From an uncultured bacterium (GTDB lineage: Bacteria; Cyanobacteriota; Vampirovibrionia; Gastranaerophilales; Gastranaerophilaceae), in NCBI GenBank assembly GCA_949284985.1, contig CASDWY010000035.1, positions 1 through 64,000 of the forward strand: DNA of 64,000 bases, read 5' to 3'. The stretch's first letter is position 1. Every line of letters starts with the position of its first letter. Positions 15,595 to 45,725 of the stretch are shown here, in pieces. The notes beneath the pieces are model-generated. The model was not told the DNA's origin, searched no databases, and saw nothing but the letters and a program-made list of their open reading frames with translations. The position numbers and the translations under genes were made by a program.

Positions 15595-17310
15595 TTATGC
15601 TGACAGAATAGATTCTCTAACAGTTTCATTAAATAAAATTCTACCAACAGTTGTTTCTATTCTTTCACCTTTTTCATCCCTTACAACAATTTTATCATGA
15701 AGCTTAATAACTCCGGATTCTAAAGCGCTTATAGCGTCTTCAAAAGAATAATAATAACCCTTAACCGGTGCATCTTGATCCTTAATAATTGTAAGGTAAT
15801 ACATACCCAATACCATATCCTGCGAAGGAGTAATAATTGGCTTACCTGTAGCAGGTGCAAGGATATTGTTTGTCGCCAACATCAACATTCTTGCTTCGGT
15901 TTGAGCCTCAATTGACAAAGGAACGTGAACAGCCATTTGGTCACCATCAAAATCGGCGTTAAATGCTGTACATACCAACGGATGAAGTTGTATTGCTCGA
16001 CCTTCTACCAAAATAGGCTCAAATGCTTGAATACCCAATCTGTGAAGAGTTGGAGCACGGTTAAGCATAACCGGGTGTCCATCAATTACTTCTTCCAATA
16101 TATCCCATACTACTGGCTCAGAACGTTCAATTTTCTTTTTAGCTGATTTTATGTTTTGAACGTGGCCTCTTTCAATCAATTTATTAACTACAAAAGGCTT
16201 AAACAATTCAATAGCCATTTCTTTTGGTAAACCACATTGATTTAACGCTAATTGCGGCCCTACAACAATAACTGAACGACCGGAATAATCAACACGCTTA
16301 CCCAACAAGTTTTGTCTGAAACGACCTTGTTTTCCTTCAATAATATTAGACAATGACTTCAACGGTCTATTATTAGGTCCAACAACAGTCCTGCCTCGTC
16401 TTCCGTTATCTATTAGCGCATCTACTGCTTCTTGTAACATACGCTTTTCGTTTCTTACTATAATTTCCGGAGCACCCATTTCTAACAATCTCAACAAACG
16501 ATTATTCCTGTTAATAACTCGCCTGTATAAATCATTAAGATCTGATGTAGCAAAACGACCACCATCTAACTGTACCATCGGTCTTAAATCCGGAGGAGTT
16601 ACCGGAAGAACATCCATAACCATCCATGTTGGCTCAGTATTGCTTTCCAATAACGCTTCTATTAATCTAAGTCTTTTGATTAATTTTGCTTTCTTTTGCA
16701 CTGATCCGCCTGCTTGTGCCAAATCACCTCTTATTTGATCAGCTAACTCAGACATATTTATTTCAGACAACAGTTCTTTTATTGCTTCTGCACCAATACC
16801 AACTTTTAATGTGCTTTCTTCGTTTTCAAGTATAAAATCCTCATACTCTTCTTCACTCAAAAGCTGTAACTTTTTAAACGGTGAGTCGCCACTGTCTAAA
16901 ACAACATAATTATTAAAATAAATAACCTGCTCTAAATCTTTTAATGTCATATCTAAAAGCAATCCCAAATATGAAGGAATTCCTTTCAAAAACCAAATAT
17001 GAGAAACAGGAGCAGCAAGCTTAATATGACCCATTCTATGACGTCTTACTTTTGAGTCTGTTACCTCTACTCCGCATCTTTCACAAATAATACCTTTGTG
17101 ACGTACTCTTTTATACTTACCGCAATAACATTCCCAGTCTTTTGACGGTCCAAAAATTCTTTCGCAAAATAAACCATCTCGTTCTGGTTTCAAAGTACGG
17201 TAATTAATAGTTTCCGGCTTTGTTACTTCACCATAAGACCATTTCATCACTCTTTCAGGCGACGCTATGCTTATTCGGATGTAATCAAAGTAATCTATAC
17301 TTGTAGACAA
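15595..17310 (-). CDS. rpoC1: RNA polymerase gamma subunit / beta' N-terminal part (RpoC1)
   Basis: 571 residues covering the clamp and catalytic core of beta'. The first zinc site is CYCGK...CERCG (Cys61, 63, 76, 79). The absolutely conserved Mg-binding motif NADFDGDQ is at 451-458, and [18 protein letters not shown] is intact. The protein ends about 110 residues after the active-site motif, where cyanobacterial RpoC1 ends. It lies 31 bp after rpoB in the same operon. Together with rpoC2 it makes the split beta' typical of Cyanobacteria and plastids. Confidence 0.97.
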
Positions 17311-17341
17311 TGTCTTATCTCCTTTATTAATTATTCTTTAA

Positions 17342-20300
17342 TTAGTCTTTAAATGTAGTCGGTGTCTCAAAGAAATTGATATTCAACAATTCTGAATCCA
17401 TATCTGAAAGAACACGTTTCGGTGCAGATCTTCTTAAATCATCTGTATCTGACATAAGATCAACCTCTTGTCCATCTTTCTTGGAGACTGTAATATCCAA
17501 ACCTATACTTTGCAGCTCTCTTACAAGAACTTTAAACGATTCCGGAATACCCGGTCTTGGAATATTATCACCCTTAACAATTGCTTCATATGCACGAGAA
17601 CGTCCGTTTACATCATCAGATTTGATTGTAAGCATTTCTTGTAATGTATATGCAGCACCGTATGCCTCAAGTGCCCAAACTTCCATCTCACCAAATCTTT
17701 GACCACCAAATTGAGCTTTACCGCCCAATGGTTGTTGCGTTACTAGTGAATATGGACCTGTTGAACGTGCGTGAATCTTGTCATCAACAAGGTGAACAAG
17801 TTTCAATATATAAGAAACACCTACTGCAACCGGTCTTTCAAACGGTTCGCCTGTTCTTCCATCATATAATGTAACTTTTCCGTCTTCTTGAACCCAGTCA
17901 CAACCTGATTCTTTTATACCACGTAAAAGCTCTGCATGAGTTGCAATTTCTGATTGGTTCTTACCATACATCTCGTCAAACGGCGGAGCTTCATAATAAT
18001 CCTTTGTAAGATATGACGCCAATCCTAATAAACATTCATATGTTTGTCCAACATTCATACGTGATGGAACACCAAGTGGATTTAATACAATATCAACAGG
18101 GGTTCCATCTGGTAAAAACGGCATATCTTCTTTAGGAAGTATTCTTGAAACAATACCTTTATTTCCATGACGACCAGAAAGTTTATCCCCAACTGATACT
18201 TTACGTTTTTGAGCAATATATACCCTAATAACAGTATTTGCACCAGGTGGAAGTTCATCGCCTTTTTCACGATCAAAAACTTTAACATCGACAACACGTC
18301 CGCCCTCTCCATGAGGAACTCTCAAAGAATTATCTTTTACATCTCTTGCTTTTTCCGCAAAAATAGCTCTAAGCAATTTCTCTTCAGGCGGATGCTCTGA
18401 CTCACCTTTCGGTGTAATCTTACCAACCAAAATATCATCAGCATACACCCTTGCACCTATACGAACAATACCTCTTTCATCTAGATGTCTAAGTGCCTCT
18501 TCTGATACGTTTGGAACTTCTCTTGTTATTTCTTCAGGACCAAGTTTTGTTTGACGAGCATCGATCTCAAGCTTTTCTATATGCACTGATGTAAATATAT
18601 CATCATGTACACATCTTTCAGAAAGCAAGATAGCATCCTCGAAGTTATATCCTTCCCAAGGCATATAAGCAACAAGAACGTTTTTACCTAACGATAACTC
18701 TCCACAATTTGTAGAAGCACCGTCTGCAATTACATCGCCTGCCTTAACCTTATCACCCTCTCTTACAATCGGCTTTTGGTTAATACAAGTATCTTGGTTA
18801 CTTCTTACATATTTCATCAAGGTGTGTTTAACAACCTTGCCCTCAGCAGTTTCAACAAAAATCTCTTCTCCGACAACTTTAATTACAGTTCCATCAACTT
18901 TAGAAACCATAACCATTCCGGAGTCTTTTGCAGCACGTGCCTCCAAGCCTGTTCCAACTACCGGTCTTTGAGTAATCAAAAGCGGAACAGCTTGACGCTG
19001 CATGTTTGATCCCATCAACGCACGGTTTGCGTCATCGTGTTCTATAAACGGTATCAAAGATGTCGCAACTGAGATAATCTGAATCGGAGACACCCCAACA
19101 TAGTCAACTCTTTTTGATTCGCCCATTGTAAATTCTGAACGATAACGAACAGGTACATATTCTGCTTTTATTTTCCTGTTTTTATCAAGCTCGACGTCAG
19201 AAGGAGCTACACGGTAGTTTTCTTCTTCGTCAGCTGTGAGGTATACAACTTCATCAGTTACAACGCCGTCTTTAACAACGAAGTATGGAGTTTCAATAAA
19301 GCCGTAATCATTAACTTTTGCGTGAGTTGCAAGAGAACCGATCAAACCTGCGTTCGGACCTTCCGGAGTTTCTACCGGACAAATTCTTCCGTAGTGTGAC
19401 GGGTGAATATCACGAACCGCAAATCCTGCACGCTCTCTAACCAAACCGCCGGGTCCCAAAGCAGAAATACGACGTTTGTGAGTCAACTCTGCAAGCGGGT
19501 TTGTTTGGTCCATGAACTGTGACAACTGTGATGAACCGAAGAACTCTTTCAAAGAAGCAACCAACGGTTTTGTGTTCAACAAGTTCAACGGAGTCAACGT
19601 GTCAGAATCCTGCAACGTCATTCTTTCTTTTACAATTCTTTCAATTCTTGAAAGACCAACTCTGAATTGGTTTTGAAGCAATTCGCCAACTGAACGAATT
19701 CTTCTGTTTCCAAGGTGGTCAATATCATCCACTGATCCTTCATCATATGTTAAATTAATCAAATACTCAATAGATGCAACTATATCTTGAACAGAAAGCG
19801 TTCTTTGCGTTTCAGGTACGTTTAAACCAAGCTTTTTATTCAGTTTATAACGTCCTACACGACCTATATCATATTTTTTCTCATCAAAAAATCTCGCTTC
19901 TATAATAGAACGTCCGCCAGCAGCTGATGCCGGATCTCCGGGTCTAAGTTTCTTATATACTTCAATCAATGCATCATCAGTTGTTTCTGCTGTGTCTTTC
20001 TCCAACGTCTTCTTGAGAAAATCATAGTGCGTAAAAATTGTTTCCATTTCCATTGGAGTAATTCCCAATGCTTTTAACAACGTTGTTGCAAGAATTTTTC
20101 TATTTTTATCTATCTTAACGTAAATCAAATCGTTAGAATCTGTTTCAATCTTAAGCCATGCTCCACGATTAGGAATAAGCGTTGCATTATACAAACGCTT
20201 TCCTGTCGGAGATACTTCTCTTTTAAAATAAACCCCCGGTGAACGAACAATTTGTGAAACAATTACACGCTCCGCTCCATTTACTATAAAAGTACCTTTA

Positions 20301-20653
20301 TCAGTCATGGTCGGAATATCACCAATATAAACTTCTTGTTCCTTTATCTCACCTGTATCACGGTTTACAAGACGCACCATAACTCGCAATTGCTTTGCAT
20401 AAGTAGCGTCATGGATACGAGCTTCTTCAATTGTATACTTCGGATTGTCAAATGTATAATTTGGCAAGAAGTGAAGCTCCAATCTGCCCGTATAATCCTT
20501 AATAGGAGAATATGAAAGAAATTCCTCCTTTAAACCTTCCTTAAGAAACCATTCAAATGATTTCTTTTGAACTTCAATCAAATCGGGTAAATCTGCCAAT
20601 CTGGTGTTTGGAATCCCCATTGGCGTAACTCTTTTAGCGTATTTTGTCGACAT
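17342..20653 (-). CDS. rpoB: RNA polymerase beta subunit
   Basis: 1103 residues, the compact form without the large E. coli lineage insertions, similar in length to cyanobacterial RpoB. The rifampicin pocket ([22 protein letters not shown], then [17 protein letters not shown]), the [12 protein letters not shown] and [13 protein letters not shown] motifs, and the C-terminal [20 protein letters not shown] are all present. RBS AGAGGTG is 5 nt before the ATG. First gene of rpoB-rpoC1-rpoC2; rplJ/rplL, the usual upstream partners, are absent here. The rifampicin-pocket coding part (about 19321-19620) is more GC-rich and uses mostly TTG for Leu, unlike much of the window. Confidence 0.98.
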
Positions 20654-20732
20654 TATTCACCTCTTATATTGTGGTTTTACGTTATTAAATTCAAATTATG
20701 TGCATAATTATTACATTTTACACTGTTATAAA

Positions 20733-20760
20733 ATTCTACCTCATAAACCATGCCAGTCAA
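20733..20760 (-). promoter_or_regulatory. Likely rpoB promoter
   Basis: On the minus strand TTGACT (20760-20755), 16-nt spacer, TAGAAT (20738-20733), about 80 nt upstream of the rpoB start, leaving a short leader with the AGAGGTG ribosome site. Confidence 0.55.
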
Positions 20761-21083
20761 GGGAATTAAAAATTTTTTTGTCAATTAACTAAACAAAAAT
20801 TTACAAATAATTCAAAAAGGATTGACAATCCCTAAATGAGTTCACTATTCGACCTTTTGATATATTTTTTATACTACTTTTTCGGTCTTAAACTTACATT
20901 TCTGTTCAAAACCTATATTAGTAAATAAAATCAATAATAACAAATTTGTTTATTTACTCTTTTCAAACATTATAAAAACTATAAAAATTAAATTTTTTAA
21001 TTGAATTATACTTTTTAATTAATACTTTTTCTATTATAAATATCATCTTCTCCTTTTAAAATAGCAAAAAAGGAAGATTAATT
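20761..21083. other. AT-rich divergent intergenic region between rpoB and the Hcp-like gene
   Basis: About 430 bp lie between the two divergent genes; this part holds no gene I can support. It contains several sigma-70-like fragments, for example TTCGAC (20848-20853) with a 16-nt gap to TATACT (20870-20875) on the plus strand. The plus-strand gene has a clear ribosome site (AAAGGAAG) at its end. No tRNA or structured RNA was recognised. Confidence 0.5.
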
Positions 21084-22670
21084 ATGTATAACTTTTTTAA
21101 TTTAGAATTCCCAACTGCTATGGAATGCTTAAGCTCGGGAAAACTTTCTATTGACCCTCGTAATATAGCTTTAAGCGAAACTTTTATCTATGAAACTCGA
21201 CAACTTACTTATTACATTCTAAAAATCAAAGAACTTGGTTATGAAAATCTAGCTATGGTCGAAACTGTTATTGATACCCTTTCTTCGGTTAATTTTGGTT
21301 TTGAATATCAAAAAAAAGATATTGAAAACCTTCTTGCTAATCTTTATGCTAAGAGAAATGAAGTTGCAGAATTTTATGAAACATTATGCCGTCAAAAAAA
21401 CCTCGACTGCCAACTTCTACACTCCGCTCAACCTAGTAATGATGATATCTCCCTCATTAAAGCTATTATGCGAGGTGAAAAACAATCCATTAAAAAAAAT
21501 ACTCAAATTTCCAGCTGCAAAAAAAACCTTTACCAAATAATGATTATGATGGCAAAATCAGCTTCAAGTCTTATTATGAAACTTAATGATTATAATATTG
21601 ACTGTATAAATGAAAGGTATCAAGTATTAGAATTTATAAATGCGTTGAATTTTCTTAACTTCCGAGAAGAAAAAATTGCAAAAAAAATTATAAAATTTGC
21701 TCAAATTAACTATGAACTTAATCTTTTGTTAAATGAAAAGTATAAAGAAAAATATTCTACCCCTAACCTTTGCAGTGTTTCATTTAACAGAAACAAAGGC
21801 AAAGCTATTCTTGTTTCCGGTGATAATCTCAACGAACTTGATTTGCTTTTACAAGCAACAGAAGGCACAGGTATAAACGTTTATACTCATGACTTAATGC
21901 TTCTTGCTTTTCAATATCCTTATTTTAGAAGATTTCCTCATCTGATAGCTCAATATCAACATAAGGAAAGAGATTTTCAGCTTGATTTTTCGGAATTTCC
22001 CGGTCCTATCTTATTAACAAAAGATTATACCAACAAAATTAACCCCATTTACAGAGGAAATATTTTCTCTACCGACTTTATTTCAGGTGTTGGTATAACA
22101 AAAATTAAAAACTACGATTTTGCGCCATTAATTAAATCCGCTAATAACTTGGATGGATTTTCCCAATCAGAAAAACGTACAAGCATTAAAATTGGTTATG
22201 ACATTAACGATATTTTTAACAAAATTGATACTATTTTAAAAATGTTCAACGATAATAAATACAATGATATTTATATAGTTGGCTTACTTAACTACGGCAA
22301 TTACTCTGGTGAATTCTTCGAAAAACTTTATCAAAAAATCGGTTCTGAAAACTTTATTATTTCTCTTGCTTACGACAAAAAAGCCGAAAATATTCTTCAT
22401 ATAAAATCTTTCTTTGATTTTTCTCTTGTTTATAAAATTATCCAAAGAATAAAAGAAAAATTAAATACCAATAAAAACACAATAAAAATAGTTCTAACTC
22501 AATGCACTAATGCAACTTTAACTAATCTGTTTATTATGAAACAACTCGGAATAAATGATATTTATATTTCTTGTTGCAATATCAACACCCTTAACCCATC
22601 TATTATGGATTGCTTAACAAAACAGTTTAGCGTAAAACAATTACAAGAAAATCAAAACTTTGAATTGTAA
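21084..22670 (+). CDS. Hybrid-cluster-protein (Hcp) homologue lacking all metal-cluster ligands
   Basis: 528 residues, close to the ~550 of Hcp. Similarity is clear in ILVSGDNLNELDLLLQATEG, TGINVYTH, YPYFRRFPHL, FPGPILLT and the C-terminal GINDIYISCCNINTLNPSIM segment, all recognisable against Hcp (hydroxylamine / NO reductase). Every ligand position I can align is changed: the N-terminal Cys cluster (MFCxQCEQT) is absent. His in SGHDL is replaced (SGDNL, 245-249), Glu in THGEML is replaced (THDLML, 268-273), and Cys in TxNC is replaced (LTKDY, 311-315). Cys of GGCD reads GLLN (400-403), the Cys of AGCxKYR is missing (near 428), and the QCND and ExK motifs are not found. The fold is probably kept without the iron-sulfur chemistry. 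RBS AAGGAAG supports the start. It converges on glgA with a 1-bp gap. Biological role unknown. Confidence 0.72.
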   Translation: MYNFFNLEFPTAMECLSSGKLSIDPRNIALSETFIYETRQLTYYILKIKELGYENLAMVETVIDTLSSVNFGFEYQKKDIENLLANLYAKRNEVAEFYETLCRQKNLDCQLLHSAQPSNDDISLIKAIMRGEKQSIKKNTQISSCKKNLYQIMIMMAKSASSLIMKLNDYNIDCINERYQVLEFINALNFLNFREEKIAKKIIKFAQINYELNLLLNEKYKEKYSTPNLCSVSFNRNKGKAILVSGDNLNELDLLLQATEGTGINVYTHDLMLLAFQYPYFRRFPHLIAQYQHKERDFQLDFSEFPGPILLTKDYTNKINPIYRGNIFSTDFISGVGITKIKNYDFAPLIKSANNLDGFSQSEKRTSIKIGYDINDIFNKIDTILKMFNDNKYNDIYIVGLLNYGNYSGEFFEKLYQKIGSENFIISLAYDKKAENILHIKSFFDFSLVYKIIQRIKEKLNTNKNTIKIVLTQCTNATLTNLFIMKQLGINDIYISCCNINTLNPSIMDCLTKQFSVKQLQENQNFEL

Positions 22671-41506: not shown

Positions 41507-43608
41507 AACAATTGTTTTTTCTTAGCCTCATCTGTTTGATTTTTTTGCTCAACCGGTTTAGCTTGTTGCTCATTATTTTTATCTTGAGTTTTTTGTTGCG
41601 TATTTTGATCTTTATTGTTAGCTTCATTAGCTTCGCCTTTGTTGTTTGCTGCTGCTTGAAGTGCTTGGAAACTGCCAAATCCACCAAATCCTGCAACTGC
41701 TGCTGAACCTGTCATAGGAGCAGATGCCGCTGCAGAAGAATTTACTGATCCTACAGATTTAACTCCACCTTGGGATTGAACATTTACTGATGATGCATCA
41801 CCTGTAGAAGCCAAACGATTAGCTGCGCTTAGTGATGCAGATAATCTTGATTGACCTTGCGTAGCATTTGTTTTAGCTGTCTGAGCTTTTTGGCTAGCTG
41901 AAGATGCAATATTCAAATAAGCTTCTTTTTGTGAGCTTAAAGATGCCTTTTGTTCAGTCAAAGATTGAACTTCTGAATTTGCACCATCTGCTATAGATTT
42001 ATATTGATTTACAGTAGATGTCATATTACTAGCCATCATATCATATGCTGAAGCTTGGTTTGAAGCCGCTGCTGCCCCTTCAGCGGCACTTTGCATTTTT
42101 TGTTGAGCTGTTTGTGCGTGCTGTTGACCGTTAGTAGACATTACAGAACCTGTAACTGTTGTCGCAACACCTGCTGTCACTGTAGCCGCACCTTTTACAA
42201 TTCCAACAGTACCTGAAGCTGACGTTACTTTACCAAACCCGATTAATGCCATGCCGGGAAAATAAGTAATCGGATTGGACAACATTCCTGTTCCTGTACC
42301 TATCATAGACTTCCCTTTAAGCACAGTGGAGTAGCCTGTTCCTATAAGCGTTCCGCCAATACCAGTTGCGACTCCGCCTGCTGATTGCATAGCCATACCT
42401 GCAATATTCTGAGCTTGGGCATGTTCTTTAGAAGATTTTGCATCTTTTCTTGTTTTTTCATATTGACTTGCAGCCTGTGAAGCAGAATTTGATAAATTTT
42501 CTAAATTTGCTTGTTTTGTTTCTGCTTCTTGAGCAATACTTTGAGCACTTTCTGCTTTAGCCTGTGCATTTTGAATTTGTGAATCTATATTTGTAATTTG
42601 ACTGCCCAATTGCTTTACAGTTGCTGTTGCGCTTGCTGCTTGAGCAGAAAGACTTGCTGCTTCGGAATTGCTTTTTTGTACCTGCTGTTCAGCATTAGCT
42701 TTTTCTGTATTAATTTGATCAAACTTTGCTGAAACTTGTTCTACTTCTTTATCTTTGTCTTCTTGATTTTTAGCATCTTTTTCATTTTTTGCTTCTTGCT
42801 CTCCTTGAACTTTTTTCATAGCTTCATTTTGCTGAGCAGAAACATCTTGAGCCTGAACTTGTTGGGTTGACTCTTGCTGTGCTTGAGCTTGTTGTGGCTG
42901 ATCTTGCACTGCGTTAGCAGAAGAATCATTACCTTCCAATTGCCCCTCTACAGAATCATCTGTATCTCCAGATGAAGCTTGCGCAAATATATTTTCCGCA
43001 CTATTTAAACCTTTTTCGGTGTTTTGATTATTTTTTACAGATTTATTATTAGTTTCTTCAGATTCAGTCTTAGACTCAGACTCTTGCTGCTCTGTTTTAC
43101 GCGCCTGATTTTTAGAGTCAGATTCAAAATTCTTTGCCTCATTTGCCACAGATTCTGAATTTTGATTACTTATATTAGCCTGCTCTGCCGCTTTAGCACC
43201 TTGATATAATGCCAAATCATCAGCAGAAACTCCTGCAGTAGCTTGTTGCATAGTCAATGTAGCTTTAGCTAAGCTACCGCTAATATTTTGTGCCGCAAAT
43301 GCTTGCGTTCCGTATTCAGAAGAATTATTAACATTTTCAATAACATCTTTGTTGTTATCAACACTCATTTTGCCAAAAATACTATTATTCATATCCATTC
43401 TGTTGTAGCCATTTTGTACATCAGAACGATACATTTCATTAGCACGAAGGCTCATTTTTTGAGCTTTTTCAAGCTCTAATGGATTTTTATCCCAAATACT
43501 TCCGGATTTGGAAGAAGAGGAAGATGAAGCTTGATAGCTTTTCTCTGTTGACTCTGTGCTTTTTACTTGTTGTAATTTTTGTATAATTTGTTGTCTTATG
43601 CCACCCAT
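41503..43608 (-). CDS. Cysteine-free Gln/Ala-rich coiled-coil protein, paralogue 1
   Basis: 701 residues with no Cys and one Trp. Order: N-terminal conserved MGGIRQQIIQKLQQ; low-complexity Ser/Asn/Gln region (about 20-270); heptad-like coiled coil (about 270-420); glycine-rich hydrophobic stretch (about 425-505, including GGVATGIGGTLIGTG); second coiled coil (about 510-610); GSAAVAGFGGFGSFQALQAA; Gln/Asn/Lys tail ending KKKQLF. No signal peptide. It resembles no family I recognise. The neighbour gene 43830-45725 is a clear paralogue. Coil-hydrophobic-coil order recalls membrane-inserting translocators, but this is an analogy only. RBS AAAAGG. Confidence 0.75.
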   Translation of the reverse strand: MGGIRQQIIQKLQQVKSTESTEKSYQASSSSSSKSGSIWDKNPLELEKAQKMSLRANEMYRSDVQNGYNRMDMNNSIFGKMSVDNNKDVIENVNNSSEYGTQAFAAQNISGSLAKATLTMQQATAGVSADDLALYQGAKAAEQANISNQNSESVANEAKNFESDSKNQARKTEQQESESKTESEETNNKSVKNNQNTEKGLNSAENIFAQASSGDTDDSVEGQLEGNDSSANAVQDQPQQAQAQQESTQQVQAQDVSAQQNEAMKKVQGEQEAKNEKDAKNQEDKDKEVEQVSAKFDQINTEKANAEQQVQKSNSEAASLSAQAASATATVKQLGSQITNIDSQIQNAQAKAESAQSIAQEAETKQANLENLSNSASQAASQYEKTRKDAKSSKEHAQAQNIAGMAMQSAGGVATGIGGTLIGTGYSTVLKGKSMIGTGTGMLSNPITYFPGMALIGFGKVTSASGTVGIVKGAATVTAGVATTVTGSVMSTNGQQHAQTAQQKMQSAAEGAAAASNQASAYDMMASNMTSTVNQYKSIADGANSEVQSLTEQKASLSSQKEAYLNIASSASQKAQTAKTNATQGQSRLSASLSAANRLASTGDASSVNVQSQGGVKSVGSVNSSAAASAPMTGSAAVAGFGGFGSFQALQAAANNKGEANEANNKDQNTQQKTQDKNNEQQAKPVEQKNQTDEAKKKQLF

Positions 43609-43780
43609 AATAAAACCTTTTTTACAATACTCTTATATACATGAAAAAAAAAACTTATTATATATTGCTTTATCTACTTTGTATATACAATATTTTTAAC
43701 AAAAGTTTACAATCCCCGCAATTAGCCTTTTCCGCTGCATTACCTGTAAAAAAATATTATATACTCCACACTTAATAAAA

Positions 43781-43811
43781 AATACGACATGCTATTTTGA
43801 CATGTCGTATT
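43781..43811 (-). terminator. Terminator of paralogue 2
   Basis: AATACGACATG / CATGTCGTATT inverted repeat (11 bp) with a 9-nt loop, followed by T's on the minus strand, 19 nt past the stop of the 631-residue gene. It separates the two paralogues into distinct transcripts. Confidence 0.8.
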
Positions 43812-43829
43812 TCAATTAAAAGTTATTAG

Positions 43830-45725
43830 CTAAAAAAGTTGTTTTTTCTTAACTTGATTTGCTTGATTAGTTTGTGTTCCTGATGTATTTACTTGGTTTT
43901 GAGCATTAGTATTATTAGCATTATTATCTTTATTTTCTGCATTTTTATTTTGTTCTTCTTTACCTACTGCATTAGATGCAGCTTGAAGAGCTTGGAAGCT
44001 GCCAAATCCGCCAAATCCGGCAACTGCTGCTGAACCACTCATCGAATTAGACGTTGTTCCTTCTGCTGCTGATACTGTTCCAGCCGATTTTGCAGAACCC
44101 TTTGATTGTATATTAACACTAGACGCATCGCCTGTTTGTGCCAGCCTATTAGCTGCACTCATAGCATTAGCCAATCTGGATTCTCCTGAAGAAACATTTG
44201 TTTTTGCAGTTTGTGCTTTTTGACTTGCGCTTTGTGCAACTTGTTGTTGAACAGTTTTCTGAGCCTGTAACGAAGCTTTTTGATCCATTAAACCTGTTAC
44301 CTCAGAATTTGCATTTTCTGCTATTGACTTGTATTGCTGCACTGTAGAAGACATATTTGTCGCCATTGCTTGATATGCTTGAGATTTTGCAGTTGCATCA
44401 GCCGCCCCTTGCGCAGCTGTTGTCATTTTTTGCTTTGCTGTAGAGGCATGTTCTTGACCATTTTGAGCCATAACAGATCCTGTGGCAGTAGTCGCTATAC
44501 CTGCAGCTGTAGTTGCAACTCCTGCTGCTGAAATAGATACCCCTGAAGCTGTTGTAGTAGCCCCAGAAGCTAATACCGGGGGAGCCAATGACGCTGTAAA
44601 CGGATTAGATGCTAAAGACATACCAAAAGCTGTAATTCCTGCGCCTGTCGTCTGTGTTGTTCCACCAGTTACAATATTTGTTGTACCAATTCCAGTTGTT
44701 ACTTGTCCAACCGCTTGCATGCCTTGTCCTGCAATAGTTTGTGCTTGTGCATGCTCTTTCGATTTCTTTGCATCTTTTTCTGTCGATTTATATTGTGCAG
44801 CAGCATCTGCAGCTGTATCAGACAAGGTATTTAAATTAGACTGTTTAGTTTCTGCCTCTTGCGCTATTTTTTCCGCACTTGCTGCTTTAGCTTGTGCATT
44901 TTGAATTTTAGAATCTATATTTTGAATATTTCCATCTATAACATTAACTGCTGCACTTGCATTCGCTGCTTGTGCAGAAAGATTTGCTGCTTCTGCGTTG
45001 CCTTTTTGAACTTGTTGCTCTGCATTAGCCTTTTCAGTATTAATTTCTTCAAATTTAGCTGCAACTTGTTCTACTTCTTTATCCTTATCATTTTGCTCTT
45101 TTGCTTGTTTATCTTCTTTGTCTTGCTTATCATCTTGAACTTTTTGAATAGCTTGATCTTGCTGAGCTGAAACGTCTTGCGACTGACTTGATGTATTACT
45201 GTCATTTTTTACACTCTGCTGTTGAACCTCATTATTTTGTTCCTGTTTTGTCGAATCATCTCCTGCAAGTGTTTCATTAACTGTATTATCACCATTGTCA
45301 TCTTGTACTTTGGTAAATATATTTTCTGCATTATTTATATTTTTATCATCTTTTTTATTATTTTTAACCGACTTGTTATCAGTATTTTCAGACTCTGTAC
45401 TTGCTTCACTCTGATAGCTTTCCGACCTTTTTTGCTTAGCTTCAGAATTTTTAGCCGTAGCTACTGATTTATCGGCAACAGCTGCGTGATCCTCTTGGCT
45501 TGCCTTTGCACGTTGTACTGCTTTCTGCGCTTCATATTGTGCTAATTCTTCATTTGTAACAGTAAAATCAAGTTTGGATGAAAAAGCTGATGCTTGTGTA
45601 AAAACACTAACATCTTTATATGATTTTTTTGACACAGATTCTTTATTAGCACTACTTTCAGAATGGTTGCTAACATAATCTGTTTGCTTAATCTGTTGAA
45701 TTAATTGTTGCTTAATTCCACCCAT
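43830..45725 (-). CDS. Cysteine-free Gln/Ala-rich coiled-coil protein, paralogue 2
   Basis: 631 residues, no Cys. Same plan as paralogue 1: MGGIKQQLIQQIKQ start, Ser/Lys/Asn-rich region, coiled coil (NTEKANAEQQVQK identical in both), a glycine/alanine/threonine-rich hydrophobic region (about 345-425), second coil (QYKSIA, EVTGL), SGSAAVAGFGGFGSFQALQAA (identical) and a KKKQLF end. The hydrophobic middle differs more than the coils. RBS AAAAAAGG. Separate promoter and terminator. Likely secreted or structural; unknown. Confidence 0.75.
   Translation of the reverse strand: MGGIKQQLIQQIKQTDYVSNHSESSANKESVSKKSYKDVSVFTQASAFSSKLDFTVTNEELAQYEAQKAVQRAKASQEDHAAVADKSVATAKNSEAKQKRSESYQSEASTESENTDNKSVKNNKKDDKNINNAENIFTKVQDDNGDNTVNETLAGDDSTKQEQNNEVQQQSVKNDSNTSSQSQDVSAQQDQAIQKVQDDKQDKEDKQAKEQNDKDKEVEQVAAKFEEINTEKANAEQQVQKGNAEAANLSAQAANASAAVNVIDGNIQNIDSKIQNAQAKAASAEKIAQEAETKQSNLNTLSDTAADAAAQYKSTEKDAKKSKEHAQAQTIAGQGMQAVGQVTTGIGTTNIVTGGTTQTTGAGITAFGMSLASNPFTASLAPPVLASGATTTASGVSISAAGVATTAAGIATTATGSVMAQNGQEHASTAKQKMTTAAQGAADATAKSQAYQAMATNMSSTVQQYKSIAENANSEVTGLMDQKASLQAQKTVQQQVAQSASQKAQTAKTNVSSGESRLANAMSAANRLAQTGDASSVNIQSKGSAKSAGTVSAAEGTTSNSMSGSAAVAGFGGFGSFQALQAASNAVGKEEQNKNAENKDNNANNTNAQNQVNTSGTQTNQANQVKKKQLF

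Follow-up and report, generated by a model that had tools for sequence, protein, structure and literature searches.

A conserved Gastranaerophilales lineage of Hcp-fold proteins that lacks the Hcp cluster ligands

The hybrid-cluster site of Hcp, in D. vulgaris numbering, is formed by H244, E268, C312, C406, C434, C459, and E494 together with K496, with C406 as the persulfide ligand. The closest described relatives of the protein analyzed here are the class I/II Hcps (TIGR01703, PF03063) of E. coli and Desulfovibrio, with which it shares full-length homology, a predicted fold, its length of 528 amino acids, and the order of its domains. It differs from them in having neither the hybrid-cluster ligands nor the [4Fe-4S] motif and in carrying the new cysteines C474 and C498 (and C102). 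Metal ligands are conserved throughout all Hcp classes, and even class III Hcps, which are homodimers that lack the middle region, keep every ligand (PMC10502027). Class III Hcps, such as those of Methanothermobacter marburgensis and Pyrococcus, share Hcp-domain homology and the fold with our protein, which in contrast is as long as class I/II Hcps and carries none of the ligands. The [NiFe] CO dehydrogenases (CODHs), including CODH-V, are more distant members of the superfamily. Their fold match is weak (TM, 0.30 to 0.38), and the ligand positions that CODH and Hcp have in common are empty here; judged on C-cluster ligands and fold, the protein is not a [NiFe] CODH.

A full-length Hcp homologue and its cluster positions

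The gene lies in the window, by which we mean the whole 64,000-nucleotide stretch of DNA that was analyzed, on contig C35 of a 1.78-Mb genome (Table 1). TIGR01703 covers residues 15 to 524 of the 528-residue product (E = 9.9e-51), although the score of 172.8 bits is about half the equivalog cutoff of 360.8 bits. PF03063 is matched above its gathering score (E = 2.1e-19), and the E. coli Hcp structure 7de4 is matched with an E value of 1.6e-31. The protein is a genuine full-length Hcp homologue, as the first-pass annotation had argued from long Hcp landmarks spread over about the family length of an intact gene with a good ribosome-binding site: the profile search on which that homology was to stand or fall gave strong matches, and the frame has both an ATG start and an upstream aaggaag. 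A match to PI3K_p85B (E = 0.03) was weak and was taken as chance.

Table 1. Coordinates of the clusterless gene and of the residues discussed in the text
Feature	Position	Strand	Basis
Likely ribosome-binding site, aaggaag, 7 bases 5' of the ATG	21070..21076	+	Sequence
Gene for clusterless Hcp-fold protein, 528 aa	21084..22670	+	ATG start; TIGR01703, PF03063, and 7de4 matches
C15, remaining Cys of the old N-terminal [4Fe-4S] motif (106/113)	21126..21128	+	Alignment
C102, helical domain (107/113 in clade)	21387..21389	+	Alignment
D247 replacing ligand His244 (SGHDL to SGDNL)	21822..21824	+	Alignment to canonical Hcp
L271 replacing ligand Glu268 (THGEML to THDLML)	21894..21896	+	Alignment to canonical Hcp
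Y315 replacing ligand Cys312 (TTNC to TKDY)	22026..22028	+	Alignment to canonical Hcp
L402 replacing persulfide ligand Cys406 (GGCDG to GLLNY)	22287..22289	+	Alignment to canonical Hcp
Y430 replacing ligand Cys434 (ACGKYR to AYDKKA)	22371..22373	+	Alignment to canonical Hcp
C474, new conserved cysteine (110/113), beside T475	22503..22505	+	Alignment
T475-N476-A477 replacing Glu494-Gln-Lys496	22506..22514	+	Alignment to canonical Hcp
C498, new conserved cysteine (110/113)	22575..22577	+	Alignment

Structure prediction, which had been proposed as a second check on the homology, agreed with the profiles. The AF2 model was built from a seven-row alignment that included canonical Hcp rows and is of moderate quality (pLDDT, 65.6; pTM, 0.66); its top Foldseek matches were 11 chains, all of them Hcp (E, 6e-23 to 5e-18; TM, 0.57 to 0.70), and the predicted structure has an Hcp fold. 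Homology and fold make the protein a member of the Hcp superfamily, but it stands outside Hcp proper, which is defined by the seven ligands and the [4Fe-4S] motif.

The same genome also encodes an ordinary Hcp (L001; contig C10, positions 42339 to 43859) in which 12 of 12 cluster residues are intact (four N-terminal cysteines, seven hybrid-cluster ligands, and the lysine), and ligands were called by aligning the window protein to this canonical Hcp, in D. vulgaris numbering. None of the eight hybrid-cluster residues is kept in the window protein: in addition to the replacements in Table 1, the C459 position is occupied by F443 or falls in a gap, and E494 and K496 correspond to T475 and A477, respectively. 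The initial claim that every metal ligand had been lost is therefore exact for the hybrid cluster and almost so for the N-terminal [4Fe-4S] cluster, where C15 survives and three of the four cysteines are gone. Because clusterless proteins are only ~20 to 27% identical to canonical Hcp, an ordinary Hcp enzyme could in principle look like this if its ligands were missed by misalignment, but this is a very improbable account, since the motifs that flank the ligands align clearly (SGDNL, TEGTGINVYTHDLML, FPGPIL), 113 sequences concur, and the window sequence has none of the missing His, Glu, and Cys residues close by. Ligand loss of the same kind recurs in these 113 family sequences, which is far beyond chance.

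Distribution, phylogeny, and selection

Matches were obtained in 53 of the 59 relatives examined. Across the family, TIGR01703 was matched in 271 of 288 genomes, but its cutoff was reached in only 108, and a canonical Hcp above the cutoff was absent from 163 of the 271 matching genomes. A profile built from the clusterless proteins indicated a clusterless copy in ~267 of the 288 genomes of this "Ca. Gastranaerophilales" family; this figure is our own count and omits, from the 271, four genomes with a best match that was canonical looking or a fragment. The clusterless gene is usually the sole Hcp-type gene of its genome. Among 113 clade sequences, the number of hybrid-cluster residues kept (of eight) was zero in 89, one in 21, and two in 3, while the N-terminal cluster cysteines usually numbered two of four, the first two never being kept.

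In a maximum likelihood tree, 37 clusterless proteins from 32 genera grouped together with 100/100 support, separately from the canonical Hcps, and this grouping was unchanged when Hcps from four further phyla and from two viral contigs were added. The 12 class-level matches from outside the order that we read are canonical Hcps with all ligands, apart from one whose trimmed frame did not extend to the first N-terminal Cys. When 84,980 species genomes were scanned with a single sequence, a search sensitive to close relatives only, one relative was returned. Scanning of viral contigs revealed no clusterless relative. A plasmid search returned 45 records, and the ten listed were 21 to 23% identical, nine of these being annotated as ordinary Hcp.

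The clusterless clade is under strong purifying selection. Between the window gene and its orthologue in a "Ca. Gastranaerophilales" MAG, whose protein is 87% identical, dN was 0.071 and omega was ~0.02 with dS saturated; for the same pair, the neighboring genes glgA, ruvA, and rpoB gave 0.022, 0.022, and 0.016, respectively. In 20 less saturated clade pairs, which are not independent of one another, omega ranged from 0.029 to 0.139 (median, 0.083). These values and the loss common to relatives in 32 genera, with omega as low as that of glgA and ruvA, bear out the suggestion that the protein is kept rather than decaying. The possibility that orthologues would retain the Cys ligands, which would have marked this copy as mere decay, was not borne out either, as orthologues in the clade share the ligand loss. 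That every catalytic residue is gone from the window copy might still suggest a former Hcp gene on its way to becoming a pseudogene, but we reject this explanation as one that can hardly be right, given the long open frames in all 113 clade sequences, dN/dS values of 0.02 to 0.14, retention in ~267 of 288 genomes, and the appearance of new conserved residues. The clusterless state anticipated by the first-pass annotation was thereby confirmed, although it is a family-wide lineage rather than a one-off paralogue.

Several arrangements were observed alongside this survey. Diverged clusterless genes occur in tandem arrays with a single direction, three in G013 (L069, 4620 to 9485) and two in G017 (L070, 483 to 3688). 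In G010 (L066, 4642 to 6210), a canonical Hcp gene is broken by an in-frame TAA, and the clusterless copy there is open. A sub-clade from genera g3, g21, and g26 (L035, L040, and L051) has a shortened C-terminal domain (~474 to 488 aa), with gaps near the old C406/C434 region and with C474 and C498 retained. The IMG/VR contigs L103, L105, and L112, which are classed as viral, bear full-length Hcp homologues.

Conserved cysteines, glutaredoxin neighbors, and candidate roles

The clade is not merely stripped of ligands but has a new conserved set of cysteines. Five positions (15, 21, 102, 474, and 498) are Cys in 94 to 97% of the 113 sequences, and three of the five lie outside the old motifs. 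Positions 15 and 21 are remnants of the former N-terminal motif. Position 21, the partner of C15, is Cys in 106 of 113; the window protein has L21, a loss that it shares with its nearest relative. Position 102 is a gap in the genome's canonical Hcp, and some canonical f8 Hcps carry a Cys there. In the genome's canonical Hcp, position 474 is a Tyr adjoining the ligand E494, and position 498 is a Thr. C474 and C498 have a common fate, both being present in 110 sequences, both absent in 3, and neither ever occurring singly. A fourth joint loss was found in a further genome (G119, L241), which brings the number of independent joint-loss events to at least three. Losses of C102 and of the C15/C21 pair fall on different branches. 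The AF2 model has C474 just after the strand at residues 467 to 471 and C498 just after the next one, at residues 493 to 495 (local pLDDT, ~56 to 60); in a sheet domain of this kind, such a strand order would bring the two cysteines to the rim of the pocket in which E494 once bound the hybrid cluster.

The gene directly upstream on the same strand encodes a glutaredoxin/GST_N-family protein with a CPYC or CPFC site in 63 of the 111 loci with enough upstream sequence. In ten examples this gene has 74 to 94 codons, and it mostly lies <60 bases away. It was the most recurrent of the neighbors compared; others (ribosomal protein genes, rpo genes, and glgA) differ from clade to clade and were left out of account. 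The neighbor is missing from 48 of the 111 loci, and the genus to which the window belongs lacks it at this place; the window's own clusterless gene stands alone and divergent from rpoB, and elsewhere in its genome there is just a weak glutaredoxin-like match. A glutathione-synthetase ATP-grasp gene was present in 34 of the 36 family genomes that were tested, among them the genome of the window, so that glutathione is plausibly available. The likeness of the clade to thiol-disulfide proteins consists of a covarying Cys pair together with a genetic link to a reductant, the link not being seen at the window locus. Upstream of the clusterless gene, two sister species have a divergent open reading frame of 161 to 177 aa from an unknown family (L075, 6433 to 6918; L074, 498 to 1031), of which no counterpart was found in the window's intergenic region (20654 to 21083).

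We infer a thiol-based role from these features. The reading we favor, tentatively and as one nearly as apt to be right as wrong, is that an Hcp paralogue has kept the fold, has given up both metal clusters, and is now a thiol protein coupled to glutaredoxin. At the pocket that once held the hybrid cluster, C474 and C498 would act as a disulfide/dithiol redox pair, with C15/C21 as a possible second pair in most members. The protein would cycle between an oxidized state and a reduced or glutathionylated one and would be reduced by glutaredoxin with glutathione. It might serve as a thiol-based sensor or as a reductase of disulfides or nitrosothiols, operating in the same stress territory as Hcp and replacing the metal-based role of NO/hydroxylamine reductase. 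Sensing or reduction of nitrosothiols or disulfides is a natural guess because Hcp has been placed in NO and S-nitrosylation metabolism (PMC10210160).

The main rival, which we consider rather unlikely, is that a new metal center (Zn, [2Fe-2S], or other) has arisen in or near the old sites, held by C15, C21, C102, C474, and C498 and perhaps by His at positions 276 and 290. The 94 to 97% conservation of the five cysteines fits such a center, as does the presence of His at position 276 in 103 of 113 clade sequences and at position 290 in 90 of 113; the paired fate of C474 and C498 would also suit a shared metal. However, the losses of C102 and of C15/C21 are independent of those of C474/C498, so that no fixed set of at least four ligands covaries, and the window protein lacks C21, H276, and H290 and is nonetheless strongly constrained. 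Glutaredoxins can deliver or share Fe-S clusters, but this is established for monothiol glutaredoxins, whereas the neighbors here are dithiol types with a CPYC/CPFC site. Since a new metal center at the conserved cysteines and histidines is possible, "metal free" here means no more than "lacking the Hcp clusters." To that extent the earlier proposal of a new, metal-free role holds only in part: the Hcp clusters are gone and the protein is conserved, but its five conserved cysteines could bind something.

A pure scaffold role comes third and is the less probable of the two. The protein would then be a pseudoenzyme without redox chemistry of its own, acting as a scaffold or partner, for example by regulating canonical Hcp or by binding a small ligand in the vacated pocket. 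Loss of all the catalytic residues with invariance of the fold positions G246, L256, D301, F305, and G307 would be expected of such a protein, and in the window's genome a canonical Hcp is at hand. Since most matching genomes, the 163 of 271 noted above, have no canonical Hcp over the cutoff, the clusterless protein appears to be independent of that partner, and the idea that it assists canonical Hcp was set aside as unlikely. The conserved cysteines and the glutaredoxin linkage also point to thiol chemistry rather than to a purely structural part.

Partly degenerate relatives and implications

Partly degenerate Hcps (INTERMEDIATES) occur in two other families of the order. They resemble the clusterless clade in belonging to the same superfamily and in having lost ligands within the same order. 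L043 retains the four N-terminal Cys residues together with E268, C312, and C406; its family mates L049 and L053 retain two N-terminal Cys residues, E268, and C312; and L056 and L060 (family f6) retain C406 and C434. C474 is absent from all five of these forms, and a Cys at position 498 is present in L043 only. In the tree they fall between the clusterless clade and canonical Hcp. The spread of canonical proteins over phyla implies a root among them, which would place all noncanonical forms on one side of a 100/100 branch. If the root is canonical, a single stepwise loss of ligands is the simplest reading; the pattern is only suggestive, as long-branch attraction could also group these proteins.

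The half-degenerate Hcp genes of family f7 adjoin rpoC2 (L043, 2577 to 6014; L049, 6659 to 11450; L053, 7159 to 11950), and the clusterless gene in the window adjoins rpoB (15595 to 20653), which lies at the opposite end of that operon. The adjacency may reflect an ancestral location or may be coincidence.

The fuller version of our preferred thiol reading is that the Hcp/CODH scaffold has become a thiol enzyme or redox sensor that is metal free, is coupled to glutaredoxin, and carries a new dithiol in the emptied pocket, the conversion being traceable residue by residue through the half-lost forms of two sister families; we offer it as a possibility that invites some doubt. In the open literature, we found nothing relevant on Hcp in Gastranaerophilales or Melainabacteria, on Hcp pseudoenzymes, or on an Hcp without clusters, in keeping with the earlier supposition that a clusterless Hcp paralogue had not been described.

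Clusters are what define Hcp and CODH, and the literature treats the ligands as invariant across all Hcp classes. A conserved branch without any of these ligands, kept almost throughout its family, indicates that the scaffold is useful without clusters. Annotated by profile matches to the hydroxylamine reductase family, these gut Gastranaerophilales would be assigned a nitrosative-stress enzyme that is missing from most of them. With half-way forms surviving in neighboring families, the loss of a metallocluster becomes a traceable evolutionary case.
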